A stretch of DNA of 64,000 nt from the NCBI RefSeq assembly GCF_014647115.1, contig NZ_BMOO01000003.1:434001-498000 (forward strand), given 5' to 3'. This document shows positions 25,427 through 32,432 of this stretch, in pieces. The position numbers and the translations under genes were made by a program. The DNA comes from Halarchaeum rubridurum (GTDB lineage: Archaea; Halobacteriota; Halobacteria; Halobacteriales; Halobacteriaceae). How positions within the stretch are numbered: position 1 is the stretch's first letter; each line of letters starts with the position of its first letter. Below the pieces are notes generated by a model. It made no database searches, was not told the DNA's origin, and saw only the letters and a list, made by a program, of their open reading frames with translations.

Positions 25427-25728
25427 CCGAAGGGAACGGTCGCCGAACGAGCGAGCGCGAACGGACGTGAGACGCGAGCACGCGTGGTCCCGAGAGGGAC
25501 CACGTCAACTCGAACGGCGTAGCCGTGAGACCACGCGGCACTGAACGAAGTGACGTTCCGCGTCCAGTACGAGCGGGGAGCACGGCGACCCGCGAGCGAC
25601 GCGACGGCGCGTCGGCGTGCGACGCCGTGGCGTGCGAGTGCCCCGCCGACCGCCCCCGATTCGCAAGCCTTATTCCTTCCATGCGGCTACGGAGAAGTGA
25701 GTACGAGCGCCCGACGCGGGCGACGTGC
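25427..25728. other. Intergenic region between trm5 and tRNA-Thr, with hairpins
   Basis: No protein gene is supported in these 302 nt. Notable parts: an imperfect hairpin just after trm5 (GGTGACCG...CGGTCGCC near 25420-25443); a perfect 9-bp stem with GAGA tetraloop at 25483-25504; the phrase GAACGGCGTAGCCGTGAG (25512-25529), near-identical to the msrB repeat; and AAGCCTTATTCCTTCC near 25666-25681, a likely promoter for the tRNA. Confidence 0.6.
25483..25504 (+). other. Perfect hairpin with GAGA tetraloop
   Basis: CGTGGTCCC (25483-25491) pairs perfectly with GGGACCACG (25496-25504) around a GAGA loop, a stable GNRA-type tetraloop. It is not followed by a T-run, so it is not a typical terminator. 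It may be a processing or stability element at the 3' end of the trm5 transcript, or part of an unannotated RNA. Confidence 0.6.
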
Positions 25729-25801
25729 GCCGGAGTAGCTCAGCTGGCAGAGCGATTCCTTCGTAAGGAATAGGTCGAGGGTTCAAATCCCTCCTCCGGC
25801 T
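25729..25801 (+). tRNA. tRNA-Thr (anticodon CGT)
   Basis: A 73-nt intronless tRNA. The acceptor stem GCCGGAG (25729-25735) pairs with CTCCGGC (25794-25800), the D-arm is GCTC-AGCTGGCA-GAGC, the anticodon stem ATTCC/GGAAT encloses the loop TTCGTAA with anticodon CGT at 25762-25764, and the T-arm is GAGGG-TTCAAAT-CCCTC. The discriminator is T, as expected for archaeal tRNA-Thr. It reads ACG threonine codons. CCA is not encoded. Confidence 0.97.
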
Positions 25802-25916
25802 CTCCTCACTTCACTACGCTTCTGAGCGACGCCGCTCGTCGCCGTGTCCGTTTCGTGGCCTCGACCCGACGTGCTGAGGAGACAGCGCTATATCGGATGG
25901 GGGCGACCGATGCGTA

Positions 25917-26348
25917 ATGAGTGTCGAGGAGCGGATCGCGGCGCTGCACGGCTCGGGAAAACGTGACGAAGCGGCCACGCTCGCGCGTGCGGCGTTGCGG
26001 AACGACGCGGTCCGCTCGGTCGAACTCGGGACGGACCGGGTCGACGTGACGACGGCGTCGTTCGTCGGCCACCACGCCATCGCGCGGTGGACGGACGGCG
26101 AGCCGGTCGTGGAGTCGGCGGGCGAGTACGCCCTCCGCGAGGACGAGCGCGTCGGGTTCGACGTCGGCGTCCTCCACGACCACGTTTTCGCGGCAATCGA
26201 GGCGGCGGAGTCGAACGACGGGCACGTCGGAGCGCGTGATGCGGTAGCGCGGGACGTGGCGTCCGAGGAGCGGGACGCGGTGACCGAGGGGCGTGACGCG
26301 CCACGCGCCGGCGACGCGAGCGCGGACGACCGGCGCGCGACGTTCTGA
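25917..26348 (+). CDS. Hypothetical protein, conserved-looking N-terminal domain
   Basis: A 143-residue acidic protein. Residues 1-95 (MSVEERIAALHGSGKRDEAATLARAALRNDAVRSVELGTDRVDVTTASFVGHHAIARWTDGEPVVESAGEYALREDERVGFDVGVLHDHVFAAIEA) look structured; the last ~45 residues are a low-complexity acidic/Arg tail (DAVARDVASEERDAVTEGRDA). The family is not recognised. The gene starts ATG 25917, with a TATATCGGATGG box ~25 nt upstream. It converges with the nitroreductase gene, leaving 3 nt. Confidence 0.7.
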   Translation: MSVEERIAALHGSGKRDEAATLARAALRNDAVRSVELGTDRVDVTTASFVGHHAIARWTDGEPVVESAGEYALREDERVGFDVGVLHDHVFAAIEAAESNDGHVGARDAVARDVASEERDAVTEGRDAPRAGDASADDRRATF

Positions 26349-26351
26349 GTT

Positions 26352-27002
26352 TCAGTAGTCGTCGATGTGGAGGACGTCGTCGACGGAGCGCCGCGGGAGG
26401 CGCTCGGGTTCGTCGCCGCCGCTCTCGCCGAGGGCGATGAGGACGACGGGAATCTGGTCGTCGGGGAGGTCGAGGAAGTCGGCGACGCCGTCGAAGTCGA
26501 AGCCGGTCATCGGCGTGGCCTTCAGCCCCCGGGCGTGCGCGGAGAGGAGGAAGTTCTCGGCGGCGAGGCTGGCGTTCCGGATGGCGAACTCGCGGTCCGG
26601 GTCGTCGGCTTCCGCCTGCGCGATGCGCTCCGCTGCGTCGTCCTCGGTGATGCGGCCGGCTTCGGCCCACTCGGTGTAGACGCGCTCGGCGTTCCGCTCG
26701 CTCTCCGTGTGGCCGACGACGACGACGCCCGTGCCGGCGTCGCGGAGGTGGTCCTGGCCGAAGGCGAGGTCGACGAGGGTGTCGAGGCGCTCGTCGTCGC
26801 GGACGGCGACGAACTCCCACGGCTGGAGGTTGAAGGCGGAGGGCGCGAACGTCGCGTCGCGGACGATTTCGCGCAGCGTCTCCTCGCTCACGTCGCCATC
26901 GGGGTCGAAGTTGTGCCCCGAGCGGCGGGTGCGGATGGCCTCGACGGCCGCGGGGAACTCGGCGTCCGGTGCGTCCTCGCTGGCGGGCGACTGTCGTGTC
27001 AT
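26352..27002 (-). CDS. Nitroreductase family flavoprotein
   Basis: A 216-residue FMN-dependent oxidoreductase. AIRTRRSGHNFDPDGDVSEETLREIVRDATFAPSAFNLQPWEFVAVRD holds the RRS/R FMN-phosphate site and the APSAxNxQPWEF motif; NASLAAENFLLSAHARGLKATPMTGFDFDGV is the second conserved block (AxxNxxLxAxxxGL). Members reduce nitro compounds, quinones or flavins with NAD(P)H. The start is ATG 27002. It diverges from the aldehyde dehydrogenase gene, with both promoters in a 162-nt gap. Confidence 0.94.
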   Translation of the reverse strand: MTRQSPASEDAPDAEFPAAVEAIRTRRSGHNFDPDGDVSEETLREIVRDATFAPSAFNLQPWEFVAVRDDERLDTLVDLAFGQDHLRDAGTGVVVVGHTESERNAERVYTEWAEAGRITEDDAAERIAQAEADDPDREFAIRNASLAAENFLLSAHARGLKATPMTGFDFDGVADFLDLPDDQIPVVLIALGESGGDEPERLPRRSVDDVLHIDDY

Positions 27003-27164
27003 GGTCGAAGCTACGCAGAGTGTCCCATATCCCACACGGGGAAGCCGTCTTTCTCGCCGGTATGGGTCGTGTGAGCGGGGAACGGCCGTGGCGTGGTCGG
27101 TCCGAGTCGCGGCGAGCGTGACGGGCGCCCGTAGCTACAACTGCCGGGCGACCCTGCGGCCGAT

Positions 27165-28559
27165 ATGGACCGCGTGAATCCCGCGACCGGGGAGGCGCTC
27201 GGAGTGGTCGAGGCGGACGACGAGGCCGAGGTCGAAACCGCCCTCGAAACGGCCGCGGAGACGTTCGAGACGTGGCGAGACGTGCCGCTCGCGGAGCGCG
27301 AGAACCTGCTCTCGAACGCGGCCGACGTCCTCCGGGAGAACGAGACGGAGTACGCGGAGCTGATGACCGAGGAGATGGGCAAGCCGCTGGCCGCGGCGCG
27401 TTCGGAGGTCGAGAAGTGCGCGTGGGTCTGCGACTACTACGCCGAGCACGCGGGCGAACACCTCCAGGACGACCACATCGGCACGGAGCCGGGCGTGGAC
27501 TCGTTCGTCGCGTACGAGCCACTCGGGCCGATTCTGGCCGTGATGCCGTGGAACTTCCCGTTCTGGCAGGTGTTCCGCTTCGCCGCGCCCCACCTCACCT
27601 CGGGAAACGTCGGGCTCCTCAAGCACGCCTCGAACGTCCCCGGCTGCGCCGCGGCCATCGAGGAGGTCTTCCGCGAGGCCGGCTACCCCGAGGGGGTCTT
27701 CCAGACGCTCCTCGTCGGCTCGGACCTCGTGGACGACGTGGTCGAGGACGACCGCGTGAAGGCCGTGACGCTCACGGGGAGCGAGCGCGCGGGTCGCGCC
27801 GTCGCGGAGACGGCGGGCGCGGAGTTGAAGAAGACGGTGCTCGAACTCGGCGGGAGCGACCCCTTCGTCGTGCTCGACGACGCGGACGTGGAGGCCGCGG
27901 CCGCGACGGGCGCGCGGGCCCGGACTATCAACTCGGGGCAGTCCTGCATCGCCGCGAAGCGCTTCGTCGTCCACACCGACGTCTACGACGAGTTCGTCGA
28001 GGCGTTCGTCGCGGAGATGGACGCCCTCGACGTCGGCGACCCGACGGCGGACGTCGACCTCGGCCCGCAGGCCCGCGCGGACCTCATGGACGACCTCCAC
28101 GACCAGGTGGAGCGGAGCGTCGCGGCGGGTGCACACGTCGAACTCGGCGGCGAACCGCTCGACCGAGAGGGGTTCTTCTACCCGCCGACGGTGTTGACGG
28201 ACGTCCCGCGCGATTCGGCGGTCGCCGAAGAGGAGGTCTTCGGCCCGGTCGCGCCGGTCTTCGAGGTCGCGGACGAGGCCGAGGCAATCGACCTCGCGAA
28301 CGAGACCGACCTCGGGCTCGGCGGGTCGGTCTGGACGGCGGACCGCGAGCGTGGGACGCGCGTCGCCCGCGAAATCGAGAGCGGCACGGTGTTCGTGAAC
28401 GAACTCACGAAGTCGGACCCCCGCCTGCCGTTCGGCGGGGTCGGTGACTCGGGCTACGGGCGCGAACTCGGCGCGATGGGCATCCACGAGTTCGTGAACC
28501 GCAAGACCGTCTGGGTACAGGACGCCGAAGAACCGGCTGACGGGCCCGCGGGAGAGTGA
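27165..28559 (+). CDS. NAD(P)-dependent aldehyde dehydrogenase (succinate-semialdehyde type)
   Basis: A 464-residue aldehyde dehydrogenase. MDRVNPATGEALG opens the fold; ILAVMPWNFPFWQVFRFAAPHLTSGNVGLLKHASNVP is the cofactor-binding stretch; the general base Glu lies in VLELGGSDPF near residue 227; the nucleophile Cys is in NSGQSCIAAKRF near residue 261; EEEVFGPVAPVF and NELTKSDPRLPFGGVGDSGYGRELG complete it. The pattern resembles bacterial Sad/GabD-like enzymes oxidising succinate semialdehyde, but the substrate is inferred. It is the last gene before the origin-like region. Confidence 0.94.
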   Translation: MDRVNPATGEALGVVEADDEAEVETALETAAETFETWRDVPLAERENLLSNAADVLRENETEYAELMTEEMGKPLAAARSEVEKCAWVCDYYAEHAGEHLQDDHIGTEPGVDSFVAYEPLGPILAVMPWNFPFWQVFRFAAPHLTSGNVGLLKHASNVPGCAAAIEEVFREAGYPEGVFQTLLVGSDLVDDVVEDDRVKAVTLTGSERAGRAVAETAGAELKKTVLELGGSDPFVVLDDADVEAAAATGARARTINSGQSCIAAKRFVVHTDVYDEFVEAFVAEMDALDVGDPTADVDLGPQARADLMDDLHDQVERSVAAGAHVELGGEPLDREGFFYPPTVLTDVPRDSAVAEEEVFGPVAPVFEVADEAEAIDLANETDLGLGGSVWTADRERGTRVAREIESGTVFVNELTKSDPRLPFGGVGDSGYGRELGAMGIHEFVNRKTVWVQDAEEPADGPAGE

Positions 28560-28645
28560 CGGGGTTCTCCGGGCCGAAGAAACGACCGGTGAGACGCGAG
28601 CGAGCGTGACCCGGCCGCGGGAGCGTGCGCGGCGGGGCCGAGTTG

Positions 28646-28675
28646 CCCCCACACACCACTGCCGCAAGTGTTTCG
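28646..28675 (-). repeat. ORB-like element 1
   Basis: A 30-nt element. On the minus strand it starts CGAAACACTTGCGGCAGTGG and ends with a run of G residues. Matches ORB2 (28987-29016) at 28 of 30 positions, and the three right-hand elements over the core. G-string end points left, away from cdc6. Confidence 0.78.
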
Positions 28676-28692
28676 ACGTGAGGGACAGGGGC

Positions 28693-28840
28693 GAGGGAGA
28701 GAAGGAAGAAAGGAGGGGAGAGTGGGGGTGAGGGAGAGAAGGAAGAAAAGAGGGGAGAGTGGGGGTGAGGGAGAGAAGGAAGAAAAGAGGGGAGAGTGGG
28801 GGTGAGGGAGAGAAGGAAGAAAAGAGGGGAGAGTGGGGGT
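28693..28840. repeat. Four-copy 37-bp purine-rich tandem repeat
   Basis: Four units at 28693-28729, 28730-28766, 28767-28803 and 28804-28840; units 2-4 identical, the first differs by a base or two. The plus strand is almost pure purine except for one T per TGGGGGT block (e.g. GAGGGAGAGAAGGAAGAAAA). It sits between the two left ORB-like elements. Such homopurine DNA can adopt unusual structures. Confidence 0.95.
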
Positions 28841-28986
28841 GAGGGTGAGGAACGTTGGAGAAAGAGAGGGGGCGAGCGAACGCGGCGACGCGTGTGAGGG
28901 CGAAACGCGTGGAGAGACGCCGTCACCCGCGAGCACGGCACAGTCTCGTGTCCCACGCCGTCGTCGCGGCGTGCCGAACGCGTCGC

Positions 28987-29016
28987 CCCCCACACACCAC
29001 CGCTGCAAGTGTTTCG
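28987..29016 (-). repeat. ORB-like element 2
   Basis: Same orientation as element 1. Core on the minus strand: ACACTTGCAGCGGTGGTGTG, then a G-run. It is ~205 nt upstream of the cdc6 start codon. Confidence 0.8.
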
Positions 29017-29222
29017 TCGCGATGGGTGGGGGTTGGGAGTGGGGGGGATAGGAGTGGACGGGACGCATCGAAAGAAGGGGATGGGGGAGAGCGGGACGTA
29101 TCGGGAGAGGGTGACGGGAGTGGACGAGGTACGTCGGGGGTGGACAGAACGGACGAAACAGACGCGACAGTTGTAACAGTTGCATCGGTGGGTTTTAGCC
29201 GACCGGGTGACTCCGTCGGGGC

Positions 29223-30467
29223 ATGACGGTGTTCGAGCGGACCCACGCGATCTTCGACGACGAAGACGTGCTCCGCGATGACTACCAACCCGAGCGGATC
29301 GAGGAGCGCGACGAGGAGCTAGAGGAGTACAAGGCGTACTTCCAGCCGGTCATAAACGGCAAGCAGCCCCGGAACATCTTCCTCTACGGAAAGACCGGCG
29401 TCGGGAAGACGGTCGCCACGAAGTACCTCCTCTCGCACCTCGAACGCGACGCCGAGCAGTACGACGACCTCGACGTCACGACGGTCTACCTCAACTGCGA
29501 ACACCTCACCTCCTCCTACCGCGTCGCCGTCAACCTCGTGAACGAGCTCCGCACTGAGGGCGAGGAGATTTCGACGACCGGCTATCCCCGCGACGCCGTC
29601 TACGACATGCTTTGGGCGGAGTTGGAGAACGTCGGGGGAACGATACTCGTGGTCCTCGACGAGATCGACTACATCGGCGACGACGACAGCCTCCTCTACC
29701 AGATTCCGCGGGCACGCTCGAACGAGAACCTCCACGACGCCAAAGTCGGCATCATCGGCATCTCGAACGACTTCAAGTTCCGCGAGCAACTCGACCCCAG
29801 AGTAGAGGACACGCTCTGCGAGCGCGAGATTCACTTTCCGCCGTACGACGGGAACGAACTCCGGAACATCCTCGAGAAGCGCTCCGCGCTCGCGTTCGAG
29901 GACGGCGTGCTCTCCGAGGACGTCGTCCCGCTCTGCTCGGCGCTCGCCGCCCAGGACAGGGGGAGCGCGCGACAGGCGCTCGACCTCCTCTTCGAGGCGG
30001 GCGACCTCGCGCGGCGGAACGGCGACGAGAGCGTCACCGAACACCACGTTCGCAACGCCCGCGCGCGGCTGGAGAAACGCCAGATCGAGGAGTCGATGAA
30101 GGACCTGACGAGCCACGACCACCTCACCCTCTACACGATTACGGCGCTGACGGTGTTCGGCGAGGAGATGCCGGTACGCCGCCAGACGATCTACGACCGC
30201 TACGAGGACGTGGCGACGAGCACGGACCACGACCCGCTGGCGATGCGGAGCCTCCACGCGCACCTCTCCGACCTCGTGATGCTCGGTATCCTCGAACGAC
30301 ACGAGCGCAACGAGGGCCGCAGCGGCGGCGCGTACTACGAGTACGAACTCGGCGTCGACCTCGACGCGGTCGTCACGACCCTCGATGGCCTCGCCATCAC
30401 GGGGAACCTCGACACCGACCGTCTCCGGGCCGCCGCAGTCCGGCAGGGACTCATCGACGCGTCCTAA
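29223..30467 (+). CDS. cdc6: Orc1/Cdc6 family replication initiator
   Basis: A 414-residue AAA+ origin-binding protein. Walker A is GKTGVGKT (56-63), Walker B is ILVVLDEIDYIGDD, sensor I is IIGISND, and sensor II is RGSARQALDLLFEAGDLA. The C-terminal winged helix spans about 300-405 (HDHLTLYTITALTVFGEEMPVRRQTIYDRYEDVA to YYEYELGVDLD). Length is standard. Orc1/Cdc6 proteins bind ORB repeats and load the MCM helicase; here candidate ORBs flank the gene on both sides. Haloarchaea carry many paralogues; which subfamily this is cannot be told without alignment. The start at 29223 follows a GTTTTAG box ~25 nt upstream. Confidence 0.97.
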   Translation: MTVFERTHAIFDDEDVLRDDYQPERIEERDEELEEYKAYFQPVINGKQPRNIFLYGKTGVGKTVATKYLLSHLERDAEQYDDLDVTTVYLNCEHLTSSYRVAVNLVNELRTEGEEISTTGYPRDAVYDMLWAELENVGGTILVVLDEIDYIGDDDSLLYQIPRARSNENLHDAKVGIIGISNDFKFREQLDPRVEDTLCEREIHFPPYDGNELRNILEKRSALAFEDGVLSEDVVPLCSALAAQDRGSARQALDLLFEAGDLARRNGDESVTEHHVRNARARLEKRQIEESMKDLTSHDHLTLYTITALTVFGEEMPVRRQTIYDRYEDVATSTDHDPLAMRSLHAHLSDLVMLGILERHERNEGRSGGAYYEYELGVDLDAVVTTLDGLAITGNLDTDRLRAAAVRQGLIDAS

Positions 30468-30610
30468 CGCCGGGTTCGACGCGCGGTGACGAGCGACCGG
30501 CGACGCCGCCTCGACCGCCGATACCGACCCACTCGACGACGCCGAGCGGCCGATAGACGGCCCGTATCAGGAGTCGAAAGCCGAGCCATCGTTCGCCCCC
30601 GGAGAGCGCG

Positions 30611-30690
30611 GAGCTCTTTTAGTGTGAATAGCTCTTGGGGTAGGTACAATTATTACTCCTACTATTACTAGCTAGCGTCTAGCTAGAAGA
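30611..30690. other. AT-rich patch with palindromic CTAG cluster (candidate unwinding element)
   Basis: The stretch from GAGCTCTTTTAGTGTGAATA through GTACAATTATTACTCC and ACTATTACTA is by far the most AT-rich DNA in the window. It is followed by CTAGCTAG-CGT-CTAGCTAG (30668-30686), a perfect 8-bp inverted and direct repeat. In replication origins such DNA marks the duplex unwinding element; that role is inferred from context. Confidence 0.6.
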
Positions 30691-30947
30691 GAGAGAAGAA
30701 AGGGGGGACGAGGAAGGGAAGCGAGAGATGAGGAGTGAAGAAAGATGGGGGTGGGAGACGAGAGGCGAGAGAAAGAGCGTGTGGGAGCTAGTTCGTCGCT
30801 GCGATGGCCGCGGTATCCCGTCGTGTGGTGGGGCGTATTCCCCGCTGTTCACCACCTATGGCGACGGTATGGGACGACGCCGTTCTCGGCCGTCGCGGTC
30901 ACCGCCGTCGGCCCTCCCACCGCTACCCTCCCACCCCACTCTCACGC

Positions 30948-30979
30948 CGAAACACTTGCAGCGGTGGTGTCCCCGGGGG
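30948..30979 (+). repeat. ORB-like element 3
   Basis: Reads CGAAACACTTGCAGCGGTGG then TGTCCCCGGGGG. Core identical to element 2 but in the opposite orientation, so its G-end points right, away from cdc6. Confidence 0.8.
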
Positions 30980-31102
30980 CGACTCGCTCCGTGCCCGCCG
31001 GTTCCATTCACCAATCCACCTACCCACCTACCCGCCTATCCACCACCTACCAACCTACTCACCCATTCACCCCTCCCCCCCACCCACTCCCGCGTCGATA
31101 CG

Positions 31103-31132
31103 CGAAACACTTGCAGCGGTGGTGTCCCCCCG
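31103..31132 (+). repeat. ORB-like element 4
   Basis: Reads CGAAACACTTGCAGCGGTGG followed by TGTCCCCCCG. Same orientation as element 3. Confidence 0.8.
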
Positions 31133-31172
31133 GCCATCCCCGACCGACCATCGCCCCCACCCACACCGCACC

Positions 31173-31205
31173 CGAGAACACTTGCAGCGGTGGGGTGTGT
31201 GCCCC
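31173..31205 (+). repeat. ORB-like element 5
   Basis: Reads CGAGAACACTTGCAGCGGTG then GGGTGTGTGCCCC. The core ACACTTGCAGCGGTG is exact; the flanks are more divergent. Same orientation as elements 3 and 4. Confidence 0.78.
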
Positions 31206-31358
31206 ATCGACTCACCCAAAACTCATCTACTGCGGTCGGCGCGCGTCCACGACGACGGTATTCTCGCGGGCGCGACGACGGCATTTTCGTGGCGACAGCG
31301 ACGACGCGACGCCCGCGGCGGCCGCAGCGTCACTCACGCTGACGCGCCGGCCGTGCCG

Positions 31359-32432
31359 TCACTCGTACGTGTGCGTGGCGAGCGTCGTCCCGTTCGCGGC
31401 GCGGACGGTCACGGTGTCGCCGCCGTTGTTCCAGACGGCGCTCCCGGCGGCCCAGTAGTAGTCGCCCCCACCGTCGGTGCCCGTGCCGGTGTGGAGCGTG
31501 AGCGACGCGCCCGGGGCGAGCGTCACGCCGTCGGGGAACGTGTAGACGTGGTCTGCGGCGTCGCTCACCCGCGCGCCCCCGAGGTCGAGCGTCGCGTCGC
31601 CCGTGTTCCGCAGGACGACGTACTCGTCGTTCAGGTTCTCGTCGTCCCGCCCCGCGGCGTCGGCGTGGACGTCGACGGCGATGGGGCCGTCACTCGCGCT
31701 CGTCCCGTCCGCAGACCCCTCGTTCGTGCTGCCGTCGTCCGTTCCACCCGCGCTGTCGTCCGTGCCGCTCGTCCCGCCGTCCGTCGCGCCCGTCGCGCAC
31801 GTCCAGAGGCCGGTCCGGTTCTCGTAGGCGGCGCCCTCCGCGCGCTGGAACGCGGGCTTGCGCGAGAAGTCGCTATCGTCGTAGACCCGCGCGAGGCCGC
31901 GGTCGATCAGCGCCGCGTTGTGGTTCGTCCCGTTCACGTAGACGTACGCGAGCAGGCGGCCGTAGTAGCCCCGACGGTCGGTGTTCGGGTCGAAGGCGAG
32001 CGTGACGTCCGCCCCGGAGAGGCGCGAAGCCGTGTAGTCGCTCGCCTCGTGCCCCCACCCGCGGAGGCAGTCGCGGTTCGCGGACGTGTTCGCCAGCCCG
32101 CGGAACTCGCGGGGCGTGTTCTCGACCCAGACCTCGGGCGTGTCGACGCCGACCAGCCGAATCGTCTCCTCGCTCCCGTTCGCCAGGCGCACGTCGACGG
32201 TGTCGCCGTCCGCGACGTCGACCACGGTGGCGTTCAGCGTCCCCGCGAACCCCGTGTCGGTACCGACGCCCACCGTCCCGTTCGCGCCCGCGCCGGCGGT
32301 CCCGGTGGTCGTCGCGCCGTTCGCCGTCCGGTCGAGCGCCGTCGTCCCCGCGCCGCCCGTTCCGCCCGTCGCGCAGCCGGCCAGCGCGCAGAGCAGACAG
32401 AGGGCGAGCGCGATTCCGGTCTCGCGTCTCAC
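31359..32432 (-). CDS. Secreted lipoprotein: thermonuclease (SNase) plus lamin-tail domain
   Basis: A 357-residue exported protein. The signal MRRETGIALALCLLCALAGCATGG ends in a lipobox (LAGC), so it should be a lipoprotein on the outer face of the membrane. After a Thr/Gly linker, residues ~65-190 form an SNase domain: VVDVADGDTVDVRLANGSEETIRLVGVDTPE, GRLLAYVYVNGTNHNAALIDRGLARVY, with the catalytic Arg/Glu/Arg pattern (RLVGVDTPE, YGRLLAYV). A Gly/Ser/Asp linker leads to a lamin-tail domain (about 245-355: LNDEYVVLRNTGDATLDLGGARVSD, VYTFPDGVTLAPGASLTLHTG). Probably degrades extracellular nucleic acids, perhaps for phosphate. It is the right-hand neighbour of the origin. Confidence 0.93.
   Translation of the reverse strand: MRRETGIALALCLLCALAGCATGGTGGAGTTALDRTANGATTTGTAGAGANGTVGVGTDTGFAGTLNATVVDVADGDTVDVRLANGSEETIRLVGVDTPEVWVENTPREFRGLANTSANRDCLRGWGHEASDYTASRLSGADVTLAFDPNTDRRGYYGRLLAYVYVNGTNHNAALIDRGLARVYDDSDFSRKPAFQRAEGAAYENRTGLWTCATGATDGGTSGTDDSAGGTDDGSTNEGSADGTSASDGPIAVDVHADAAGRDDENLNDEYVVLRNTGDATLDLGGARVSDAADHVYTFPDGVTLAPGASLTLHTGTGTDGGGDYYWAAGSAVWNNGGDTVTVRAANGTTLATHTYE

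Follow-up and report, generated by a model that had tools for sequence, protein, structure and literature searches.

A candidate plasmid-type Orc1/Cdc6-ORB replication-origin module in the chromosome of Halarchaeum rubridurum

The cdc6 locus and its elements

The window, a 64-kb stretch of the Halarchaeum rubridurum genome (G000:C3:434001-498000), contains between a tRNA-Thr gene and a nuclease gene an orc1/cdc6 gene, which is flanked on both sides by ORB-like elements and accompanied by an AT-rich island. The features are, in window positions:

25729-25802, plus strand: tRNA-Thr(CGT) (ARAGORN), left boundary of the variable interval containing the module
28646-28675, minus strand: ORB-like element L1, GGTGG end outward (left), two mismatches to the 23-mer core; repeat family D6/I1
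28987-29016, minus strand: ORB-like element L2, 23-mer core with no mismatch
29148-29192, plus strand: five 9-bp half-ORB units, AACGGACGA AACAGACGC GACAGTTGT AACAGTTGC ATCGGTGGG (lag-9 z = 5.6)
29193-29198, plus strand: presumed TATA box of cdc6, TTTTAG, 30 nt before the ATG (29223)
29223-30467, plus strand: orc1/cdc6 gene, 414 aa (TIGR02928, 2e-136; PF22703, PF09079 and AAA domains; solved relatives 2v1u and 2qby)
30615-30686, no strand: AT-rich island, four CTAG at 30668-30686; a candidate for the DNA unwinding element by AT content, CTAG density and conservation
30948-30979, plus strand: ORB-like element R1, GGTGG end outward (right), 23-mer core with no mismatch
31103-31132, plus strand: ORB-like element R2, 23-mer core with no mismatch
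31173-31205, plus strand: ORB-like element R3, four mismatches to the 23-mer core and none to the 16-mer core
31359-32432, minus strand: nuclease with a lamin-tail domain (PF00565, PF00932), right border of the interval

The Cdc6 protein is composed of an AAA+ ATPase domain, a Cdc6 lid and a C-terminal winged helix and is, as looked for at an origin, an Orc1/Cdc6 of more than 300 aa with both AAA+ and winged-helix domains; its solved relatives are Aeropyrum and Sulfolobus proteins.

All five elements described by a previous sequence-only reading were recovered with the positions and orientations it gave them, while a sixth, degenerate copy on the plus strand (29175-29190), which overlaps the cdc6 core promoter, had been overlooked. 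Mismatches to the core CGAAACACTTGCAGCGGTGGTGT number none at 28994, 30948 and 31103, two at 28653 and four at 31174, and the end of R3, GGTGGGGTGTG, resembles the lone distal ORB copies described below. The motif AACACTTGCAGCGGTG occurs with up to two mismatches six times in the window, each time inside the 2.6-kb cdc6 locus; with up to three mismatches just these six copies are found again, whereas shuffling gave an expectation of 0.21 and never as many as six, and the whole 2.81-Mb genome adds just one copy with up to two mismatches. A terminal G-run, attributed by the sequence-only reading to all the elements, is present in the two left copies (GTGTGTGGGGG) but not in the right copies, which end in GGTGGTGTCCCC... 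or GGTGGGGTGTGTG; the end common to all five, GGTGGNGT, does point outward in five of five, as had been claimed for the G-ends, but is no G-string.

Inverted ORB-like repeats are present in the intergenic regions adjoining cdc6, including a cluster of three downstream of the gene as in oriC2D. Because no minus-strand ORB was found between cdc6 and the AT/CTAG island, a close inverted pair of the classical type is missing, and the inverted partners of the right ORBs are located on the far side of the gene. Between L1 and L2 (28688-28835), a 37-bp purine-rich tandem repeat (GGGGTGAGGGAGAGAAGGAAGAAAAGAGGGGAGAGTG) is present in four copies; it was not apparent in the equivalent spacer of two sister species.

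AT content in the window is highest in a 60-mer beginning at 30615 (65% versus 28%), which lies between cdc6 and the right ORBs. The spacer upstream of cdc6 peaks at 48% AT in the window and was rejected as the unwinding site. The tetranucleotide CTAG is 13-fold depleted in the 499-kb contig (106 occurrences, 1420 expected), of which the island, with four CTAG in 19 bp, is the densest cluster. Two sister species have the island, including CTAGCTAGC..CTAGCTAG, in the equivalent position, although the surrounding spacer has diverged; likewise the island, the right ORBs and the promoter element are conserved in three species, but the neighbouring sequence is not. In relatives, CTAG reaches 13.4 per kb between the ORBs upstream of cdc6 versus 0.62 per kb elsewhere, and for 129 haloarchaeal cdc6 genes it is 8.7-fold more frequent upstream than within the gene body. 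Enrichment of CTAG upstream of haloarchaeal orc1/cdc6 has been reported (PMC4752239), with its role left open (PMC5867850, PMC6471742). An AT-rich element flanked by inverted ORBs is present, but cdc6 separates it from the left ORBs; as the presumed unwinding island lies downstream of cdc6 in Halarchaeum and upstream in relatives, its place on the other side of the gene would correspond to a shifted initiation site. On another contig (C1:130319), an N4/N6-type DNA methyltransferase with an SPPY motif is encoded, a candidate orphan CTAG methylase.

Kinship, conservation and chromosomal position

The Cdc6 of Halarchaeum nitratireducens, the closest named genome, is 99% identical. Outside Halarchaeum, the nearest Cdc6 proteins are plasmid-encoded (64-68% identity), and in the tree the Halarchaeum clade is sister to six plasmid-encoded Cdc6 with support 100/100. 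Over the two sets compared, the best identity is 68% for the collection of plasmids and 56% for other Halobacteriaceae genomes; the published origin families, among whose listed members are the chromosomal orc10, orc2 and cdc6E, are delimited at 80% or more Cdc6 identity (Wu et al. 2012, PMC3528665). A second Cdc6 group of ~54% identity occurs on both chromosomes and plasmids. Plasmid pNMAG02 (255 kb) and a 41-kb Haloplanus plasmid encode a single cdc6 each, and on the latter nearly all ORBs lie at this gene; as some plasmids with this gene type have only one cdc6, it is presumably their replicator.

In H. rubridurum itself, at least ten further cdc6 genes score above the family cut-off. The other cdc6 loci examined each carry different flanking repeats, including the canonical oriC1-type GAAACGAAGGGGT, so that the ORB type of the present locus belongs to this Cdc6 paralogue, as the sequence-only reading had suspected; the canonical GAAAC...GGGG ORB is found at other cdc6 loci of the genome and not at this one.

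Conservation beside orthologous cdc6 genes, whose absence would have counted against the sequence-only reading by its own terms, was observed across genera. Related ORBs flank the orthologue on both sides in Halarchaeum and also the 54%-identical cdc6 of Natrinema, Halorientalis, Halorhabdus, Haloglomus, Halopenitus and Halocatena. At 26 orthologous loci, cdc6 is accompanied by ORBs of its own subfamily type, in most on both sides; outward orientation predominates at the outer sides, with upstream ORBs mostly on the minus strand (51 copies) and downstream ORBs mostly on the plus strand (70 copies), and opposite-strand ORBs (37 upstream, 20 downstream) make inner inverted pairs. In each of 14 relative genomes, nearly all matches sit at the cdc6 locus. 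Common to the ORBs of kin is GTGGTGT, while the core varies by subfamily (AACACTTGCAGC, AACGATTGAATC, TTCACTTGCAAC and GCGGACA types); across 392 genomes of the order, the exact 16-nt core was encountered in two, each a Halarchaeum. Bracketing of the gene, which had been called unusual, must consequently be regarded as the rule in this clade, since orthologous cdc6 genes in other genera are bracketed by related ORBs, and ORBs on both sides, the same layout as here, have been published for cdc6E, orc8, orc10 and others (Wu et al. 2012, PMC3528665). In Halorhabdus amylolytica, a second cluster on another contig (G403 C25:64252-64377) mirrors the ORBs downstream of cdc6 and is possibly a duplicate origin.

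In one sister species, Halarchaeum G135, the flanks are the same but the cdc6-ORB cassette between them is inverted as a whole (C1:44000-56000 compared with window positions 25700-32400), and the inverted module directly adjoins tRNA-Thr(CGT); the inverted ORBs at the cassette ends could have been the crossover points. Genome G141 shows an empty-site arrangement, with tRNA-Thr and the nuclease gene ~0.9 kb apart and cdc6 absent, and the interval is variable in further genomes. This arrangement fits the gain of an origin, which has been proposed to occur in haloarchaea (PMC3528665); instead, the module may have been lost in other genomes. On the 499-kb contig, GC skew peaks within cdc6, but its amplitude is small, G135 is without a signal and the two single-cdc6 plasmids have no clear extremum at cdc6; GC skew, a check that the sequence-only reading had put forward, gives no reliable support and was discarded as origin evidence.

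A half-ORB array in the cdc6 promoter and lone distal ORBs

The array of half-ORB units runs directly into the TATA box, and its final two units constitute the degenerate sixth ORB. These units and the TATA box are conserved in two sister species, nearly all relatives in the closest groups place the TATA box 30-32 nt before the ATG, and the cdc6 transcript is probably leaderless. Sister species and plasmid relatives show the same promoter layout, each in its own ORB sequence and mostly with GTGG touching the TATA box.

Among 129 non-redundant haloarchaeal cdc6 promoters, the 9-bp lag gives a mean best z of 2.46 versus ~1.0 at all other lags, and z exceeds 3.5 in 22% of the promoters versus at most 1% at other lags; all these promoter figures are descriptive, as related genes and sequences are not independent. 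Promoters of genes other than cdc6 show lag 9 in 4.9% and lag 12 in 5.3%, a codon signal. Codon periodicity was rejected as the source of the 9-bp signal, as cdc6 promoters show no lag 12, whereas in other genes lags 9 and 12 are about equal. A clear array is present in only 41% of the promoters (53 of 129), and for 60% of these genes the match between the units and the flanks of the same gene ranks in the top 10%. Reversed and shuffled units drop to 11% and 13%, whereby base composition was rejected as the cause of the match. Arrays of 9 bp before the TATA box are also observed at distant cdc6 families, in this genome on C8 and at C2:520937, and in other genomes.

As the units match each gene's own ORBs, autoregulation is indicated, which suggests that Cdc6 may control its own promoter through the 9-bp units. 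Precedent for an Orc1 protein acting at promoters is provided by the Sulfolobus Orc1-2 regulator (PMC9738581). No report of half-ORB arrays or iterons at cdc6 promoters was found in the open-licence papers searched.

Lone ORB copies, AACACTTGCAACGGTGGGG, are located at the 3' end of idsA in three of four Halarchaeum genomes, H. rubridurum (C3:402162-402180, 61 kb from cdc6), G165 (61 kb) and G170. G135 lacks a copy at idsA but possesses two lone copies at other sites, the first 6.5 kb away from its cassette and the second 3' of isopentenyl phosphate kinase; both gene names were read from sequence. All lone copies in the four genomes lie in 3' or convergent spacers, and a function as promoter element of idsA or its neighbour was rejected on account of this position. 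The sequence AACACTTGCAACGGTGGGG occurs in none of 21 other Halobacteriaceae genomes, and no clear lone distal ORB was found in 14 relatives that would make it a general feature. Our guess is that the lone distal ORB serves the titration of Cdc6.

We give even odds to the wider proposition that a control element of haloarchaeal initiator genes has gone unrecognised, namely an array of half-ORBs of the gene's own family running into the TATA box, on which Cdc6 would load and shut the promoter as an archaeal counterpart of DnaA and Rep-iteron autoregulation, with the conserved lone ORB tens of kilobases away acting in Halarchaeum as a datA-like sink.

Interpretation and relation to known systems

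The sequence-only reading of the locus as a candidate replication origin with ORBs has gained support, as the protein belongs to the Cdc6 family and the elements are far above chance and conserved beside orthologous cdc6 genes. With a probability of about three in four, we consider the locus a plasmid-type Orc1/Cdc6-ORB replication-origin module resident in the Halarchaeum chromosome between tRNA-Thr(CGT) and the nuclease gene. Cdc6 would bind its own diverged ORBs, which flank its gene on both sides; from the outward ORBs around the island 30615-30686 it would open the island and load MCM; on the half-ORB units before the TATA box it would limit its own synthesis; and the spare ORBs of the locus, together with the conserved lone ORB 61 kb away, would soak up the initiator. 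These steps, from DNA binding by Cdc6 and unwinding to autoregulation, titration and firing in the cell, are predicted from sequence.

That the origin is dormant or inactive, with Cdc6 binding the ORBs and regulating its own gene while the chromosome normally relies on oriC1 or other origins for its replication, is a serious possibility, if a less than probable one; one of the further cdc6 genes of the genome, at least ten in number, has canonical oriC1-type ORBs, and Haloferax mediterranei possesses dormant origins with intact ORBs (PMC4595724), but the cassette has been retained in at least three species, even through an inversion, with island, ORBs and promoter conserved. A purely regulatory cluster, whose ORBs buffer Cdc6 and act as operators while initiation takes place elsewhere, appears unlikely, as the AT/CTAG island sits inside the ORB bracket and the genome offers no other cluster of this ORB type from which Cdc6 could fire; nevertheless, the oriC2D cluster downstream of cdc6E in Haloarcula hispanica is inactive as an origin and restrains oriC2 (PMC3936714), and the lone distal ORBs in 3' and convergent intergenic positions fit titration.

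The inversion of the whole cassette between the same flanks in Halarchaeum G135 and the variability of the interval among genomes could also be expected if the outward repeats were recombination sites of an invertible or mobile cassette and not initiator sites. We hold this to be very improbable, as the cassette is without a recombinase, the repeats covary with the Cdc6 subfamily and recur in the cdc6 promoter, and relatives keep them at cdc6 on plasmid and chromosome alike. Chance or low-complexity similarity in G-rich spacer DNA has a negligible probability: both spacers are indeed purine- or pyrimidine-rich and contain simple repeats, but six copies stand against 0.21 expected, and they are exactly conserved across species despite diverging spacers.

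As a probable origin module of plasmid type, the locus would be a case of such an origin settled in a chromosome, with the empty-site arrangement at hand in a related genome. The control of the initiator level in archaea is a largely open question; since the promoter array is specific, mutable and found at many cdc6 genes, autoregulation becomes directly testable, and the 9-bp regularity across haloarchaeal cdc6 promoters reaches beyond this one locus. The dense CTAG cluster inside the presumed unwinding site is, moreover, well suited to testing whether methylation of CTAG sets the timing of replication.

Plasmid Rep iterons put initiator sites into the promoter of the initiator gene itself. 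The DnaA boxes of the dnaA promoter and titration by datA are further examples (cited in PMC3936714), and the present locus resembles these systems in combining initiator sites on the own promoter with a distal binding site; it differs in that the initiator is an archaeal Orc1/Cdc6 and the sites are 9-bp ORB half-units, and shared ancestry is not implied. CTAG is enriched beside cdc6 as in the clusters of Blow et al. 2016 (PMC4752239), which are located upstream of orc1/cdc6, whereas here the cluster lies downstream within the AT island.

Closest in protein outside the genus are the cdc6 loci of six plasmids or strains, Natrialba magadii pNMAG02, Haloterrigena salifodinae pHTS171, Natronorubrum aibiense, Halosolutus, Natrinema SYSU A 869 and Halalkalicoccus jeotgali plasmid 2, which share the 9-bp units before the TATA box with Halarchaeum but have the ORB AACGATTGAATCGGTGGTGT and an inverted ORB pair with the AT/CTAG region upstream of cdc6. 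The origin oriP-cdc6K of H. hispanica pHH400, for which autonomous replication was shown (PMC3528665), belongs to the same broad Cdc6 group (54% identity), with kin that carry a 9-bp array in their own ORB sequence; its ORB, however, is of the GCGGACA type, which in the present genome is found at another paralogue (C2:324845).

Also in H. hispanica, the G-run is essential at oriC1 (PMC3936714), whereas the right-hand ORBs here are without one. The oriC2-cdc6E/oriC2D region of the same species is similar in having ORBs on both sides and a cluster downstream of cdc6, for which titration has been proposed; there the origin lies upstream and the downstream cluster is regulatory, while here the best unwinding candidate is downstream (PMC3936714). 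With the haloarchaeal orc/cdc6-adjacent origins (Wu et al. 2012, PMC3528665), the locus has in common family-specific inverted ORBs in the intergenic regions flanking cdc6 and an AT-rich element; distinct from them are a 16-nt core restricted to Halarchaeum among 392 genomes, a G-run on the left copies only and an AT/CTAG island downstream of the gene. Among these systems, the locus stands as a convincing candidate for an origin of a known kind, with its own ORB subtype and a displaced unwinding island.
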